Below the pieces are notes generated by a model. The model saw nothing but the letters and a program-made list of their open reading frames with translations, was not told the DNA's origin and did no database searches. The position numbers were made by a program, and so were the translations under genes. From Blastocatellia bacterium (lineage in GTDB: Bacteria > Acidobacteriota > Blastocatellia > HR10 > J050): a stretch of 64,000 nt of DNA. Position 1 is the first letter of the stretch. Each line of letters opens with the position of its first letter. The stretch lies in the NCBI GenBank assembly GCA_026985075.1, contig JALSQX010000105.1, positions 186,001 through 250,000 of the forward strand. Reading direction: 5' to 3'. Shown here piece by piece: positions 7,213 to 18,522 of this stretch.

Positions 7213-9354
7213 TCAATCGAGCTTCTGCTTGCATCTCTCGGCAATGGCCGCCGCCAGGTGACGCTGGGCGATGAGGAGGTCCTGTTGTGACAATCGGTTC
7301 TCGGTGACGAGTTCTTTGATGGCATTATTGGCGGCCATTTGACAGACCATTTCCACATCGGCGCCGCTGAACCCACCGGCCAGCTTCACCAGCACATCCA
7401 GATCGACATCATCGGCGATGGGGCGATGGCGGAGGTGAATCTGAAAGATTTCCTTCAAGGCCTCACTATCGGGCAAGGGCACTTCCAGGAGGAGATCGAA
7501 TCGACCGTGTTCGAAGAGGGCCGGATCGACCGCCTCCAGGCGATTGGTCGCTCCGAGGACGACGAGGCCACGGAGCTGCTCAATGCCATCGATTTGGGAC
7601 AGCAGTTGGCGTAACGCCCGTTCGGCTTGGCTCACCGTATCGCTGCGGTGCTCCGTCGGTGAGAGAGCATCAATCTCATCCAGGAAGATGATCGAAGGCG
7701 CCATCCGACGAGCTCGACCGAATATATCGCGGATCATTTGTTCACAGAGGTTGACGTCTCCCATGATCAGGTCTGTTGCTTTGACCGGGATGAACGTGAT
7801 GCCCGTCTCTTTAGCCAGCGCTCGAGCGAGCAGCGTCTTGCCCGTCCCCGGAGGGCCATGGAGGAGGACGCCTCGGACTGGCCGGGCGCGCACGCGGGTG
7901 AACAGTTGGGGCGATTGCAGGGGCCGGATGACCGCTTCCATCAGTTGTTCGCGTACTTCCTGGAGACCACCGATATCTTCCCAACTGGCCTCGGCGAATT
8001 CACTGGTCGCCGATTCAGCCAACGACGGCGTAATGGTGCGGAGCGCTTCCAGAAAGTGAGCCATCGTGACGCGAATGCCCGCGAGCATCTCGAAACTCGG
8101 TTGGCCCCAATATCCGGTCTCAATCATTTTCTGGCGCAGAGCGATGAATGCCGCTTCCTGACAGAGAATGCTCAGGTCGGCCCCAACGAATCCTTGCGTG
8201 AGCGCCGCCAGTTGGTCCAGATCAACGTCTTCGGCGAGCGGAATGCTCCGGGAGTGAATCTCCAGGATCTCTCGCCGATCCTTGTGGTTCGGCGGTTGAA
8301 CGTCGATTTCGCGCTCGAATCGCCCGTGACGACGAAAGGTGGGATCGATGTCATCAGGGCTCGTCGTTGATCCGATGACGACCACGCGGCCGTTTCGCTC
8401 GAGTCGATCGAGAAGGGTGAGCAGTTCGGTGGCGATGTACTTCTCCGCCTCCGTCGCCGCCAGGCATTGTTGAGAGGCGATGCGCTCCAGTTCGTCAATG
8501 AAGATCACCGCCGGTGGTCGAGCGACGGCGCGCTCGAAGAGGTCGTGGAGGTGCATTTTTTCGTGATGATAGTATTTGTTCAGGATCTCCGGCCCACTGG
8601 TGGCCAGAAACTGCGCCTGAGCTGCCTCGGCGACGACGCGCGCCATGAGCGATTTCCCCGCGCCCGCCGGACCGCTGAGCAGGATGGCTCGAGGAGCCAC
8701 GACGCCCAGCCGTTCGAAGATCTCGGGATGCTTCAGAGGCACTTCCACCATTTCGCGCAGTCGCTGGACTTCCTGTTTGAGACCGCCAATGTCTTCGTAG
8801 ACCAGAAGTTGTTCGGTGGCCTCGGTGGGCGCCCGCTCAACCACCTCGAAGGTCGTCGACAGGTTCACGCGAACGGGACCGGCCGGGTGGCATTCGAGGA
8901 CTTTAAAATCGTGGGCGCTGATGCCAAATGGTGACAGGCGGATCAGATCGCCTTCCACAGCGACCAGGTTGTCGAGTAACTTTCCCAGGTATTTTTCGAT
9001 TCCACGAATATGCTCATCATCCCAGCGAGAGGCTGGCGCCAGGGTGATGCGCTCAGCAACCGCGCAATCGATCGGACGAACGGTCACTTGCTCATCCAGA
9101 TCGACGTCGGCATTGCCGCGCGTGAGACCGTCAATCTGAATCGTTTGTGGTTGCCGGTCGGCATCGAGCGAGGGCATGACCACGGCGACCGTTCGACGTC
9201 GTCCGACGATTTCGATCGCCTGGCCAGGGGAAAGTCCCAGCACCTCCAAGTCCTGAGGGTCAAGACGAGCGATGTTACGACCAACATCTCGACTGCGCGC
9301 TTCCGTGACACGAAACGCTCGCGTGAGTGAAGGCCGGTCCGCTCCATTGCTCAT
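7213..9354 (-). CDS. CDC48/p97-like double AAA+ ATPase
   Basis: A 713-residue protein with an N-terminal double-psi barrel-like region (~1-180) and two AAA+ modules. D1 has Walker A GPAGAGKS (228-235), Walker B VIFIDE and RRHGRFERE at the arginine-finger site. D2 has GPPGTGKT (500-507), Walker B IIFLDE and sensor-1 GATN. CDC48-type proteins unfold substrates by threading them through a hexamer; bacterial members are known but poorly studied. Several key positions differ: the D1 pore segment reads KYYHHEK where KYYGES is usual, the D1 sensor-1 reads GSTTSP rather than GATNRP, and D2 has FEHGRFD in place of LRPGRFD. The D2 second-region helix (EERLRE-like) is also divergent. Cofactors such as Ufd1/Npl4 are not expected in bacteria, so the client is unknown. 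Confidence 0.9.
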   Translation of the reverse strand: MSNGADRPSLTRAFRVTEARSRDVGRNIARLDPQDLEVLGLSPGQAIEIVGRRRTVAVVMPSLDADRQPQTIQIDGLTRGNADVDLDEQVTVRPIDCAVAERITLAPASRWDDEHIRGIEKYLGKLLDNLVAVEGDLIRLSPFGISAHDFKVLECHPAGPVRVNLSTTFEVVERAPTEATEQLLVYEDIGGLKQEVQRLREMVEVPLKHPEIFERLGVVAPRAILLSGPAGAGKSLMARVVAEAAQAQFLATSGPEILNKYYHHEKMHLHDLFERAVARPPAVIFIDELERIASQQCLAATEAEKYIATELLTLLDRLERNGRVVVIGSTTSPDDIDPTFRRHGRFEREIDVQPPNHKDRREILEIHSRSIPLAEDVDLDQLAALTQGFVGADLSILCQEAAFIALRQKMIETGYWGQPSFEMLAGIRVTMAHFLEALRTITPSLAESATSEFAEASWEDIGGLQEVREQLMEAVIRPLQSPQLFTRVRARPVRGVLLHGPPGTGKTLLARALAKETGITFIPVKATDLIMGDVNLCEQMIRDIFGRARRMAPSIIFLDEIDALSPTEHRSDTVSQAERALRQLLSQIDGIEQLRGLVVLGATNRLEAVDPALFEHGRFDLLLEVPLPDSEALKEIFQIHLRHRPIADDVDLDVLVKLAGGFSGADVEMVCQMAANNAIKELVTENRLSQQDLLIAQRHLAAAIAERCKQKLD

Positions 9355-11880: not shown

Positions 11881-12699
11881 TCACTTCACTTTCTTGGGAT
11901 TCGTGGGTTTTTCGAACAAGCGAGGATCGACGGCGCGATTGAACACGACCGAACTATAGGCGATGCGCGACGTTTGAACGCCATTTCGATAATGATCAAT
12001 ACGAAATGGCCAGCGAATGCCGTCGATATCCTGGTAGAGGAAAAAGCGATCCTCTTCGTTCCCGTAGGCGACGCTGAGCGGGAGATGCGTTTGGGGATCG
12101 ATATACACCTCGACCACATCTTCGCTCCCATCGGGAAGGGTGAAGCGAATCTCGACACCCTGACCGCGCTGGCGAAACCAGATCTCGCGCTCGCCCAGAT
12201 ATCGAAGGGGGGGCTTCGATTGATGCCAGCGGCGGAGGATATTATCGAGACTGTGTCGAAATCCGCGTTGGAAGTTCTCCACCTGCTCTGGCGTTTGATC
12301 GCGAATGGCCTTTTGCTGACCATCGTAAATCCAACCGGTGGTGCCGATGTTGGTTTGAATGAAACGGTTTTTCCCCTTGCCGAACTCGGTCCGCTCTTTG
12401 TCCGGGTAAACGATGTAATCGACGAATTTCGCCAGGAACTCGAGATTCCCATTCTCGTCAAACTGCGAATACATGCCCTTGCCCACAATCGTCTTGAGGG
12501 CGAGGAACGTCTCACCACCCAGCGCTTCGATGGCCGCGTGGAGCAATTGGCGCGCCTGAGATGTCGATGGAGCGCGATCGTTTTGGGCGTGAGCGAGCGG
12601 GAGTGAAGGAGGGAAGCAGATGAAAACCCCGATCAACAGGGCATATCGGTATCTGGTGAGTCCTGGTCTCTTCTGGTCCACGTCCCGTTCGTCGCTCAA
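11881..12699 (-). CDS. Secreted protein, LolA/outer-membrane lipoprotein-sorting-like
   Basis: A 272-residue protein with a signal peptide (hydrophobic run about residues 19-36, ending LAHAQ). The mature part starts with QARQLLHAAIEALGG and continues with alternating beta strands such as KGMYSQFDENGN, GTTGWIYDG, EVYIDPQTHLPLSVAY and DGIRWPFRIDHYRNG. This pattern resembles the open beta-barrel LolA/LolB fold of many acidobacterial periplasmic proteins; the assignment is by shape, not by a diagnostic motif. Its start is a TTG that overlaps the stop of the upstream Clp gene by three bases, so translation is probably coupled. A GTG six codons later is an alternative start. Function is unknown. 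Confidence 0.7.
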   Translation of the reverse strand: MSDERDVDQKRPGLTRYRYALLIGVFICFPPSLPLAHAQNDRAPSTSQARQLLHAAIEALGGETFLALKTIVGKGMYSQFDENGNLEFLAKFVDYIVYPDKERTEFGKGKNRFIQTNIGTTGWIYDGQQKAIRDQTPEQVENFQRGFRHSLDNILRRWHQSKPPLRYLGEREIWFRQRGQGVEIRFTLPDGSEDVVEVYIDPQTHLPLSVAYGNEEDRFFLYQDIDGIRWPFRIDHYRNGVQTSRIAYSSVVFNRAVDPRLFEKPTNPKKVK

Positions 12700-14978
12700 A
12701 CTCTGACTGTGGGAGCCATATCCGCTTGTTCGGTGAATATCACCACCTCACCATCTCTGGCATCCACGGTGAACGCATCTCCTTCTTTCCACATCATGGT
12801 GATGGGGAGCTTGACGTGCTCGTCGATAGTTCGTTTCAGATAGCGAGCTCCATAAGCCTCGGAGTATCCCATCTCCACCAGTTGATCCAGTGCTGCGTCG
12901 GTGACGCGCAGCGATTTCCCGGCCTGCTTCATTTGGTGTTCCACTTTCCGGAGATACATTTGGGCGATTTGACGGACATCCTCTCGGCAGAGCGGCGAGA
13001 AGACGACGATTTCGTCTAACCGGTTGCGGAATTCGGGTGAGAATCGCTCTTCGGCCACTTTGAGGATTTCTCGTTTAATGGACTCGATCTTGGACTTATC
13101 CTGCGGCGCGAAACCCAGCGGTTTGAGGTACCGCCTGTATTTTTCGCTGCCCAGGTTGGACGTCATGATGATGATGGCATCGGACAGATAGACGCGCTTG
13201 CCACGGCCATCGGTGATCCAGCCTTCGTCGAAGGCTTGTAGGAAGAGATTCATCAGGTAGGTCGATGCCTTTTCGATTTCGTCCAATAACAGAACAGTGA
13301 ACGGGTTATCCCGAAGCTGTTCGGTGAGCACGCCGCCGCGCTCGCTCCCCACGATGCCGCGAGGCATGCCGATGAGCTTCTCGATGCCGATGGTTCCGTC
13401 TTGATATTCGGAACAATCGATGCGAATCATCTTCTGCTCATCGCCGAACATGAACTCGGCGACAGCCTTAGCCAGTTCCGTCTTGCCGACACCCGTGGGC
13501 CCGAGGAAGAGAAGCACTCCATCGGGACGATAGAAATTCTCTTTGAGCGGACCTTTATTGAGCCGCAATCGTCGGGCCACCGCTTCGATGGCTTCCCGCT
13601 GACCGACGACGCGGCGGGCCAAAGCTTCTTCCATTCCTTTGAAGCGCTCGCTCACATCGCGAAAGATCATATCGCGAGGGATGCGAGCGTCTTGCGAGAT
13701 GACTTCGATGACGTGTTCCGGCTTGACGATGAGTTGATCGGGTTGATTGATCTCCACCTTGACCGACGCCGTATCCAGCCAGCCAATGACCTTATCGGGG
13801 AGGTGGAGATTGCGGATGTATCGTGGCGCCATCTCCAGAGCCGTCTCGATCGCTTCATCGGAGATGGTCACCGAGTAATTTCGCTCTAACCGTGGTTTGA
13901 TCCCGCGGAGAATCTGGCGCGTTTCTTCCAGGTTGGGTTCGTCAATTTTCACTAAGCGGAAGCGCCGCGCCAGCGCTTCATCCTCGGCAATGTACTCCTT
14001 GTACTCGTTCATGGTGGTGGCGCCGATGATGCGAATCTCGCCTCGGGCCAGACTGGCTTTGAAGATGTTGGCGGCATCATTGGATACGCCCAGAGCCGCC
14101 CCGGCGCCGATGATGGTGTGGGCTTCATCGATGAACAGGATGATGTTCTCTCGCTCCTTCACTTCGTTGATGATGCCGTGAAGCCGCTCTTCGAACATTC
14201 CTCGGAGCATCGTTCCGGCGACCACGCCGGACATCTGGAGACCCACAATATGGGCGTTCCGCAGCCGCGGGGGCACTTTCTCCGGTTCCAGTTCGATGAG
14301 TCGCGCCAGGCCTTCAACCACCGCCGTCTTTCCCACCCCCGGCTCCCCCACGAGCATCGGCGAGTTGGCGCGTTCCCGGTGGCAGAGGATTTCCATGATT
14401 TGTTGCAGCTCGCGCTCCCGACCGATGAGGGGAGGGAGCTTATCCTGGCGGGCGAGCTTATTGAAACTGATCCCAAAGTGTTTCAAGTAGGGAGGGAGTT
14501 CGTACCTTCGCCGGTAGCGCTCCTCGCGCTCTTCCCGCGTGTGGACCCGGGTCATGATCTTCTTGACCACCATGTCCGGATCAGCCCCCAGTTGACGCAG
14601 GATCTCTACCGGCGCTCCTTCGCGGCTCTGGAACAGGCTCACAAACAGATCGGCGGAGTTGATCTCTTTTCGCCCTCGTTGGCGAGCCCGATCGTAAGCG
14701 ATGCGAAGTAATGGACGCACCGCATGCACGCGCATACCGCGGCCCGTGTACTGGCGGGGAACCGAGAGCACTTCGTGCAACGCGCGGATGACGGTGTCCG
14801 GGTCCAGATTGAGACTCTGCATGACCTCATTGAACAGACCACGTTCGACCTCGATGAGGGCGAGAAAAATGTGTTCAGGGCCTATGAAGTTATGATCAAG
14901 ATTGCGGGACTCTTCCATAGCTCGCGACAATACCCGCTTGGCGCTCTCCGAAAACTGATACGGCCCGAAATCAATCAT
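12696..14978 (-). CDS. ClpC/ClpA-like Hsp100 ATPase with unusual pore loops
   Basis: A 760-residue two-ring AAA+ unfoldase. It has an N-domain (1-~145) and AAA1 with Walker A GEPGVGKT (211-218) and Walker B ILFIDE (280-285). AAA2 has Walker A GPTGVGKT (493-500) and Walker B VLLLDE. The short linker between the rings lacks a ClpB-type coiled coil, and the LGF tripeptide at 621-623 sits where ClpA/ClpC/ClpX bind ClpP, so it is probably a protease partner. The odd point is the substrate-gripping loops: AAA1 reads AGTMLRG where family members have AGAKYRG, and AAA2 reads GIVG where GYVG is usual. Both pore tyrosines are therefore missing. The start ATG follows GGAGG, and a strong promoter lies just upstream. 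No clpP is adjacent. Confidence 0.93.
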   Translation of the reverse strand: MIDFGPYQFSESAKRVLSRAMEESRNLDHNFIGPEHIFLALIEVERGLFNEVMQSLNLDPDTVIRALHEVLSVPRQYTGRGMRVHAVRPLLRIAYDRARQRGRKEINSADLFVSLFQSREGAPVEILRQLGADPDMVVKKIMTRVHTREEREERYRRRYELPPYLKHFGISFNKLARQDKLPPLIGRERELQQIMEILCHRERANSPMLVGEPGVGKTAVVEGLARLIELEPEKVPPRLRNAHIVGLQMSGVVAGTMLRGMFEERLHGIINEVKERENIILFIDEAHTIIGAGAALGVSNDAANIFKASLARGEIRIIGATTMNEYKEYIAEDEALARRFRLVKIDEPNLEETRQILRGIKPRLERNYSVTISDEAIETALEMAPRYIRNLHLPDKVIGWLDTASVKVEINQPDQLIVKPEHVIEVISQDARIPRDMIFRDVSERFKGMEEALARRVVGQREAIEAVARRLRLNKGPLKENFYRPDGVLLFLGPTGVGKTELAKAVAEFMFGDEQKMIRIDCSEYQDGTIGIEKLIGMPRGIVGSERGGVLTEQLRDNPFTVLLLDEIEKASTYLMNLFLQAFDEGWITDGRGKRVYLSDAIIIMTSNLGSEKYRRYLKPLGFAPQDKSKIESIKREILKVAEERFSPEFRNRLDEIVVFSPLCREDVRQIAQMYLRKVEHQMKQAGKSLRVTDAALDQLVEMGYSEAYGARYLKRTIDEHVKLPITMMWKEGDAFTVDARDGEVVIFTEQADMAPTVRV

Positions 14979-15168: not shown

Positions 15169-16815
<1,647 letters not shown>

Positions 16816-17538
16816 TTAAGCCAAAGTCGTTTTCTTCTCGGCCGGTGGGGGGGATTCGGCCGCGTCAGGAGCAGTCGCTCGCGCCTTCCCCACGCGCACC
16901 TGGGCCGGTCGAATGAGCGTATCTTCTCCGAGCCGATAGCCCGGTTGTAGCACCTCGATGACCATGCCGTCGCGCTCGGGTTCGACGGGTACCGTCTCCA
17001 CCACATGGTGAAAGCGAGGATCAAATGGTTCTCCTAGCGGATTGATGATAGAGACGCCCTCGGCTTCCAGATGACGTTCGAAGAGGGCCGCTGTGGCCCG
17101 AATCCCTTCCAGGAGGCCTTCGACGTTGCGAGTTTGTTGGCCCGCCTCGATGGCCCGTTTGAGATTATCGAGGACGTCCAGAAGGCGGGCGATGAACTGC
17201 GCTTTACTTTGATGGAGCTGATCGGCCATGGTCCGGCGCAACCGCTCGCGAATGGCCTCCACCTCTGATTGCATCTGCTGCCGCGCCTGGCGAACCTGCT
17301 CAGCGTACTCGAGCAGTCGCGCTTCGCTGGCCTTGAGCTTGTTCTGTAATTCCTCCACATAGGATGGGTATCGCGGCTGTTCTTCCACCGGTTCCACGGT
17401 GGAGAGATCCTCCTCCAATAACCGCAAGAATCGCCGTTTGTCGACCACTCGCGGCTTTCCTTCGTCCACATCTTCCCGATCGCCATCGGGGCGGGTGTGA
17501 GATCGGAGCGTTTCGTGCTTTTCTCTGTCTGTGTTCAT
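16816..17538 (-). CDS. grpE: GrpE nucleotide-exchange factor
   Basis: A 240-residue protein matching GrpE, which releases ADP from DnaK. A long coiled coil (about residues 58-125, LQNKLKASEARLLEYAEQ) leads to the family block ARLLDVLDNLKRAIEAG. The C-terminal beta domain carries GEPFDPRFHHVVETV and a pattern ending GYRLGEDTLIRPAQVRVG. It is longer than average because of charged N-terminal and Ala/Pro-rich C-terminal extensions. It is placed between htpX (22 bases upstream) and groEL (15 bases downstream) in one transcription unit. dnaK and dnaJ, the usual partners, are absent from the window. Confidence 0.93.
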   Translation of the reverse strand: MNTDREKHETLRSHTRPDGDREDVDEGKPRVVDKRRFLRLLEEDLSTVEPVEEQPRYPSYVEELQNKLKASEARLLEYAEQVRQARQQMQSEVEAIRERLRRTMADQLHQSKAQFIARLLDVLDNLKRAIEAGQQTRNVEGLLEGIRATAALFERHLEAEGVSIINPLGEPFDPRFHHVVETVPVEPERDGMVIEVLQPGYRLGEDTLIRPAQVRVGKARATAPDAAESPPPAEKKTTLA

Positions 17539-17559: not shown

Positions 17560-18420
17560 TCATTCCATTCCCCCTTCGGGGAGCATTCCGATTAATCGAC
17601 GAATCCGCTCTTCGGTCGGCGGATGGGTGCTGAAGAGCGTGGCCACCAGTCCACGCCGCAGTGGATTCACGATCATCATATGAGCTGTCGCCGGATCGGC
17701 CTCCCGCATGGGAAGGCGCGCGGTTCCACGCTCCAGTTTCTCCAGAGCCCGAGCCAGCCCATAGGGACTCCCCGCCAGTCTCGCTCCAGTGGCATCGGCT
17801 TCAAATTCGCGCGAACGGGAGATGGCCATCTGGATGAGCAGGGCCGCGATGGGCGCGAGAATGATGAAGAGGAGCGCTCCTGCGGCGCCCAGGGGGTTAT
17901 CTCGGTCATCGTCGCCGCCGAGTCCGCCAAAGAAGAAGGCGAATCGGGCCAGCATCATCAACGCGCCGGCGATGGTGGCGGCAATTGATTGGGTGAGAAT
18001 ATCGCGATTTTTGACGTGGGCCAGTTCGTGGGCCAGCACGCCTTCGAGTTCGTCCTCATCGAGGAGTCGCAGGATACCTTCGGTCACGGCGACCACGGCG
18101 TGCTGCGGATCGCGACCGGTGGCAAAAGCATTGGGCGAGGCGCTGGGAATGAGGTAGAGGCGGGGCATGGGAAGATGGTTGCGCTCGGTCAAGCGCCGGA
18201 CGATCCGATAGACCTGCGGTAACTCTGCCTCTGTCACGGGCCGGGCGCGATACGCCGAGAGAGCGAGCCGATCAGAAAAATAATAGGCCCCGAGGTTCAT
18301 CACGGCAGCAAAGAAGAAGGCCGTGATCATGCCCTGACGACCACCGATGAGTTCACCGGCTACCAGTACGAGCCCGGTGAGAAGACCTAAGAGAAGAACT
18401 GTCCGAATGTTATTTCCCAT
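17560..18420 (-). CDS. htpX: HtpX-type membrane zinc protease (M48)
   Basis: A 286-residue inner-membrane metalloprotease that degrades damaged membrane proteins. Two hydrophobic segments lie at the N-terminus (about 7-22 and 30-48). The zinc motif HELAH is at 131-135, the third-ligand region [15 protein letters not shown] follows, and two more hydrophobic segments lie between (about 145-165 and 180-197). The C-terminal [14 protein letters not shown] is the usual family end. It is the first gene of htpX-grpE-groEL, a gene order that supports a heat-stress role. Its promoter (TTGACA/TAGAAT) abuts the promoter of the divergent sigma-54 activator gene. Confidence 0.95.
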
Positions 18421-18492: not shown

Positions 18493-18522
18493 ATTCTATG
18501 GATGGAAGTGTAAGTTTGTCAA
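18493..18522 (-). promoter_or_regulatory. Promoter of htpX-grpE-groEL
   Basis: On the minus strand: perfect -35 TTGACA (18522-18517), an 18-base spacer and -10 TAGAAT (18498-18493). The expected start is about 65 bases before the htpX ATG. It looks like a housekeeping promoter; I see no CIRCE element or sigma-32 consensus nearby. The -35 box is three bases from that of the divergent promoter. Confidence 0.6.

Follow-up and report, generated by a model that had tools for sequence, protein, structure and literature searches.

The window analysed here is a stretch of 64,000 nucleotides from a Blastocatellia bacterium (contig JALSQX010000105.1, positions 186,001 to 250,000 of the forward strand). 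It encodes, on the same strand and in this order, htpX, grpE, groEL, a two-ring Clp/Hsp100 ATPase of 760 residues (referred to below as the 760-aa Clp) and a secreted-type protein of 272 residues. The features, in window coordinates, are as follows.

18493–18522, minus strand: sigma-70-like promoter match TTGACA-18-TAGAAT upstream of htpX (11/12 matches, a consensus match only)
17560–18420, minus strand: membrane protease of the HtpX type, whose gene heads the presumed operon
16816–17538, minus strand: GrpE
15169–16800, minus strand: GroEL, upstream of the 760-aa Clp, one of three in the genome
12696–14978, minus strand: 760-aa Clp, a two-ring Clp/Hsp100 ATPase of a separate clade, without M-domain (open reading frame, Pfam, alignment, tree and model)
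14505–14978, minus strand: N-domain of the Clp_N type, residues 1–158 (Pfam PF02861, 2.5e-15, and model)
14325–14348, minus strand: ring-1 Walker A GEPGVGKT, residues 211–218, canonical (alignment)
14199–14219, minus strand: ring-1 pore-1 loop AGTMLRG, residues 254–260, Leu258 replacing Tyr (alignment)
14124–14138, minus strand: ring-1 Walker B LFIDE, residues 281–285 (alignment)
13479–13502, minus strand: ring-2 Walker A GPTGVGKT, residues 493–500 (alignment)
13380–13400, minus strand: ring-2 pore-2 loop region DGTIGIE, residues 527–533, rewritten and one residue longer than in other Hsp100s (alignment)
13338–13370, minus strand: ring-2 pore-1 loop GMPRGIVGSER, residues 537–547, Ile542 replacing Tyr (alignment)
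13278–13292, minus strand: ring-2 Walker B LLLDE, residues 563–567 (alignment)
13110–13118, minus strand: tripeptide LGF of the ClpP-docking type, residues 621–623 (orthologue alignment)
11881–12699, minus strand: secreted-type protein with a LolA/LolB/RseB-like fold, downstream of the 760-aa Clp with a 4-base overlap (open reading frame and model)

Chaperone genes recur next to the orthologues of the 760-aa Clp. Among 39 loci, ClpB lies nearby in 18, GrpE in 16, Hsp20 in 16, GroEL in 7 and HtpX in 3; at least one of these is present in 23 loci and none in 16. The fullest order is Hsp20, ClpB, Hsp20, GrpE, GroEL, 760-aa Clp and the downstream gene, the family names having been confirmed in one locus. 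This linkage is absent for most orthologues outside Blastocatellia, where GroEL lies upstream in one of six loci (L080). The LolA-like family is linked to the 760-aa Clp gene in 20 of the 39 loci, always on the same strand; its fold comes from a moderate model (pLDDT 71), and the family (window 11881–12699, minus strand) has no Pfam or NCBIfam match. The recurring neighbour families that could be named, part of the single-locus neighbours being annotated, are chaperones, GrpE, HtpX and the LolA-like protein. No CIRCE element (HrcA site) was found within the window at up to 3 mismatches. A role in anti-phage defence was considered and rejected, PADLOC having given generic AAA matches only. The same genome encodes canonical ClpC and ClpB, two clear ClpP and three GroEL proteins; the 760-aa Clp is thus an addition to these and not a replacement.

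Two other proteins of the window deserve mention. The GroEL encoded at 15169–16800 (minus strand) ends in an acidic tail without GGM repeat, and no groES is seen adjoining its gene. A CDC48/p97-type AAA ATPase (7213–9354, minus strand) has DLIMGDVNL as its ring-2 pore loop, the loop of p97 at the corresponding site being LLTMWFGESE. One of its ring-2 arginine finger positions is changed (LRPGR to LFEHGR), and among its sporadic relatives, too, the pore loops vary greatly.

The 760-aa Clp has the Pfam domains Clp_N, AAA, AAA lid 9, AAA_2 and ClpB_D2-small. It shares with class 1 (two-ring) Clp/Hsp100 proteins the Clp_N domain, the two AAA modules, the D2-small domain and Walker A and B motifs in both modules. 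That these motifs are kept in both rings, as the initial annotation had stated, is confirmed by alignment with E. coli ClpA and ClpB, B. subtilis and Listeria ClpC, Listeria ClpE, ClpL, ClpK, TssH and the Acidobacteriota paralogues; the same alignment shows canonical arginine fingers, as well as a canonical sensor 1 in ring 1 and sensor 2 in ring 2. There is no M-domain: ring 1 passes into ring 2 at residues 412–418, where ClpC has about 60 residues more. The predicted model (mean pLDDT 81) matches ClpC, ClpA and ClpB chains (Z 29–34), mostly over residues 161–753 but along almost the whole protein for the ClpC–ClpP model 9a66; the ring-2 pore-1 loop of the predicted model has a pLDDT below 50, too low to give its shape.

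The pore-1 loops read AGTMLRG in ring 1, where AGxKYRG is usual, and GMPRGIVGSER in ring 2, where GxPPGYVG is usual (GIVG being residues 541–544). The replacement of the pore tyrosines by Leu and Ile had been noticed at the outset: the loops align where they had been placed, and they are common to every orthologue examined. Pore loops elsewhere in the protein, or relatives with canonical tyrosines, were seen neither in the alignment nor among the orthologues. A misplacement of the loops is ruled out by alignment with ClpA, ClpB, ClpC, ClpE and TssH and by the model; a sequencing error or a pseudogene is ruled out by the intact orthologues with the same loops in dozens of genomes, and chance is no better an explanation for loops found in every orthologue examined.

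The conservation of these loops was assessed on 60 aligned orthologues, 56–99% identical, in which 28% of the positions are invariant overall. Residue 258 is Leu in 58 of them and Phe in 2, while Ile542 is present in all 60. Met257, Arg540, Ile542, Val543 and Ser545 are fixed, and the whole block of residues 534–545 (KLIGMPRGIVGS) is invariant (60/60). The fixation of Ile542 is worthy of note since, among the 60 Ile positions in the protein, no more than 5, this one included, are invariant in the family. The changes extend around it: compared to other Hsp100s, PPG has become PRG before residue 542, the Y/F/H that follows the GYVG-type motif has become Ser after GIVG, and the pore-2 segment EKH-xVSRL has become DGTxxIEKL with one extra residue. 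No aromatic residue remains at ring-2 positions 526–553. Wherever the ring-2 loop is intact, the reference proteins have GYVG, GYIG or GYLG; an aliphatic residue at the ring-2 position was not found in any other Hsp100, Tyr being present in every other intact loop examined. An aromatic pore-1 residue in both rings, which the 760-aa Clp lacks, is a usual trait of class 1 Clp/Hsp100 proteins; since natural exceptions occur in ring 1 (ClpE, TssH), its loss is no bar to membership of the superfamily. At the level of sequence, we consider it firmly established that the family is an exception with naturally altered pore loops, and we infer that the surface of its ring-2 channel has been re-specialised as one unit. 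The LGF tripeptide, said from the start to be retained, is indeed kept (L in 58, G in 60 and F in 59 of the 60 orthologues), within a loop that varies on either side of it.

The orthologues form one clade (support 100/100) outside ClpA, ClpB, ClpC, ClpE, ClpL and ClpK in three maximum-likelihood trees, with a long stem of 1.6–2.0 changes per site. The initial annotation was thus right to envisage a distinct clade with shared substitutions; its description of the protein as "ClpC-like" is appropriate for the fold and for the LGF-type ClpP-docking loop, but not for the missing M-domain nor for the position in the tree, outside the ClpC rows. TssH joins the clade with 97–100% support in the two trees in which it was included, a join of long branches with unlike composition that the tree program flags as possibly false and that is perhaps due to long-branch attraction; if it holds, the clade would be the sister of ClpV/TssH. 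The scores of the 760-aa Clp against NCBIfam models fall well short of the equivalog cut-offs: 602 bits for ClpA (TIGR02639, cut-off 993), 621 for ClpB (TIGR03346, cut-off 1232) and 559 for ClpV/TssH (TIGR03345, cut-off 885); it is also far under the NCBI cut-offs for ClpK and ClpG. Simple orthology to ClpC or ClpA is ruled out by the trees and by these cut-offs. An assignment to ClpB is contradicted by the low score, the lack of M-domain and the presence of LGF (ClpB has no ClpP loop), and an assignment to ClpE by Ile542 in place of the ring-2 Tyr and by the position of Listeria ClpE elsewhere in the trees.

Orthologues were found in 53 of the 58 searched genomes related to that of the window, in the class Blastocatellia (66–99% identity), and most of the genomes that lack one are incomplete. 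Six further orthologues (56–62% identity), none of them from Blastocatellia, came from a draw of 297 genomes of the phylum; the gene is rare in Acidobacteriota other than Blastocatellia. The matches in public records are from Blastocatellia, Chloracidobacterium and Pyrinomonadaceae, from which the class was inferred, and the nearest is an Acidobacteria metagenome-assembled genome (99% identical). A scan of genomes by exact 8-residue words gave matches in Acidobacteriota only; such a scan reaches near relatives only, and the family may also occur in other phyla. Between the same pairs of genomes, conservation of the 760-aa Clp is close to that of ClpB and exceeds that of ClpA. As judged from sequence, the family is a new subfamily of double-ring Clp/Hsp100 proteins, so far only in Acidobacteriota; no earlier description of it was found in the open-licence literature.

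Among the plasmid records listed, none exceeds about 41% identity to the 760-aa Clp, and no plasmid record at all reaches 60%. Short Clp ATPases from plasmids of Lactiplantibacillus and Enterococcus (L121:1429-3213 and L128:1495-3123) miss the ring-2 GYVG loop altogether (LLGTADAGGTLTE and LIGDSHTDGSLIRK); they have also lost the ring-1 loop and carry no LGF. On a linear plasmid of Runella rosea, a few genes separate a Clp ATPase gene (L125:330-2315) from one for a phage tail sheath, and this Clp ATPase perhaps serves a contractile injection system as its recycling ATPase.

We tentatively favor, at slightly less than even confidence, the idea that the 760-aa Clp is a stress-linked threading motor, probably docking on ClpP, whose softened aliphatic grip would serve loosely folded or dedicated clients. 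The protein would form a hexamer, usually docked on ClpP, that burns ATP and, in the manner of ClpA or ClpC, threads polypeptides along its axial pore. The aliphatic Leu/Ile pore and the added, invariant Arg540 would give a weaker grip or another preference for side chains. Large aliphatic side chains would still touch the substrate, though with less contact, and the motor should therefore slip on stable folds, which would be spared and left to the cell's canonical ClpC or ClpA, and process clients that are already unfolded, loosely folded or dedicated to it under stress. The conserved LGF suggests that chains may be handed to ClpP, and the residence in chaperone clusters suggests that the clients may be heat-denatured.

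Several observations are in favor of this softened grip: the ATPase motifs are intact and conserved, the pore block is invariant in a protein that mostly is not, LGF persists amid varying flanks in a genome with two ClpP genes, the fold is that of ClpC, ClpA and ClpB, canonical ClpC and ClpB coexist with the protein, chaperones are neighbours in 23 of the 39 loci, and conservation is like that of ClpB. ClpX holds its substrate chiefly through non-specific van der Waals contacts made by its YVG loops (PMC6677533). ClpE of E. faecalis, an active ClpP unfoldase, carries a natural Ile194 in ring 1 together with Tyr526 in ring 2, and its I194A variant degrades some substrates much less (PMC13125188); ClpE shows that the ring-1 Tyr can be dispensed with. 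In yeast Cdc48, the non-aromatic residue of the ring-1 pore prevents harmful degradation, and restoring the aromatic is lethal, apparently because essential proteins are fed to the proteasome (PMC5511170). On the other side, ring 2 is the main motor of ClpA, ring 1 assisting it (PMC9663308), and in ClpG the Tyr to Ala substitution lowers activity in ring 1 and abolishes disaggregation in ring 2 (PMC8024975), so that threading might fail entirely with an aliphatic ring 2. Moreover, ClpP docking is deduced from one tripeptide, and the chaperone linkage is missing in 16 of the 39 loci.

It may be, although we would sooner doubt it, that this phylum-restricted Hsp100 has abandoned the aromatic grip in both rings for low-force or non-threading remodelling, and resorts to ClpP only when the client does not have to be unfolded by force. 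In its strict form, that of a remodeller or holdase whose ATP cycles alter its shape and partners without pulling on chains, as proposed for torsins, the idea appears improbable but is a serious alternative. It would account for the lack of any aromatic residue in or near the ring-2 loop, for the rewriting of both ring-2 pore loops and for the chaperones as neighbours, and torsins, whose pore loops lack aromatics and which are probably not threading machines, are a precedent (PMC5425593). However, torsins have lost the loops altogether, whereas those of the 760-aa Clp are hydrophobic and strictly conserved; LGF would be pointless without delivery into ClpP, and the arginine fingers, Walker motifs and sensors required for double-ring cycling are kept. 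Another view, that of an ordinary unfoldase of full strength for which Leu and Ile are just as good as Tyr, is quite improbable: everything else is canonical and ClpE functions with Ile in ring 1, but ring 2 has Tyr in every other intact Hsp100 loop examined, and the adjoining residues were changed too and are now invariant, a pattern that suggests a new requirement rather than drift.

ClpV is a motor dedicated to the sheath of the type VI secretion system, and the 760-aa Clp could likewise serve one or a few clients, its pore (Met257, Leu258, Arg540, Ile542, Ser545 and the new pore-2 loop) being tuned to a client tail. The nearly frozen loop block in a protein that mostly varies, the join with TssH in two trees, the aliphatic ring-1 residue of TssH and the LolA-like gene that comes next in 20 of the 39 loci all point that way. 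We nevertheless find it unlikely, though a serious alternative, since the join is a meeting of long branches, no single client gene is linked in every locus, and the downstream product looks exported and is therefore unlikely to encounter a cytosolic motor except before export. That the protein is a regulatory subunit which mixes into canonical ClpC, ClpA or ClpB hexamers and tunes their grip is very unlikely: the genome also encodes a canonical Hsp100, and 18 of the 39 loci have ClpB nearby, but the protein is only about 37% identical to these three, lacks the M-domain and keeps all its own interface motifs, and we know of no mixed hexamers of different Hsp100 families. Of the roles suggested in the initial annotation, that of a weak or specialised unfoldase is plausible, whereas that of adaptor for disaggregation gains nothing direct beyond this proximity to ClpB.

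The pore Tyr of ring 2 is treated as an essential gripping residue of Clp/Hsp100 motors. The 760-aa Clp family is a natural and strictly conserved exception, changed in both rings, with canonical paralogues in the same cells. It raises the question of whether a softer grip is enough for an unfoldase to function, and makes it possible to test the share of the aromatic residue in unfolding force and substrate choice, and the use of a softer pore. If it is a low-force or non-threading remodeller, it would be, to our knowledge, the first Hsp100 whose main motor (ring 2) is naturally non-aromatic.

ClpC (Bacillus subtilis, Staphylococcus aureus), which gives the best matches among solved structures, has the same fold, double ring, LGF-type ClpP loop, ATPase motifs and N-domain, but the 760-aa Clp is only about 37% identical to it, lacks its M-domain, has Leu and Ile instead of Tyr in the pores and belongs to a separate clade. 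ClpA (Escherichia coli and Acidobacteriota) shares the N-D1-D2 arrangement without M-domain, the ClpP loop and the length of about 760 residues; unlike the 760-aa Clp, it has canonical KYR and GYVG loops, and it forms its own 100/100 clade. ClpE (Enterococcus faecalis, Listeria) also has a natural aliphatic residue, Ile, in the ring-1 pore loop and ClpP as a partner, but it keeps the ring-2 Tyr (Tyr526), has another N-domain and an M-domain, and groups elsewhere. TssH/ClpV, which joins the clade in trees, has an aliphatic ring-1 residue too (ASVRG), whereas its ring-2 GYVG is kept, LGF is absent and its neighbours are those of type VI secretion. Last, ring 1 of eukaryotic Cdc48/p97 and the torsins are, like the 760-aa Clp, AAA motors without a pore aromatic, but they belong to other AAA clades or have a single ring, and Cdc48 keeps the aromatics of ring 2.
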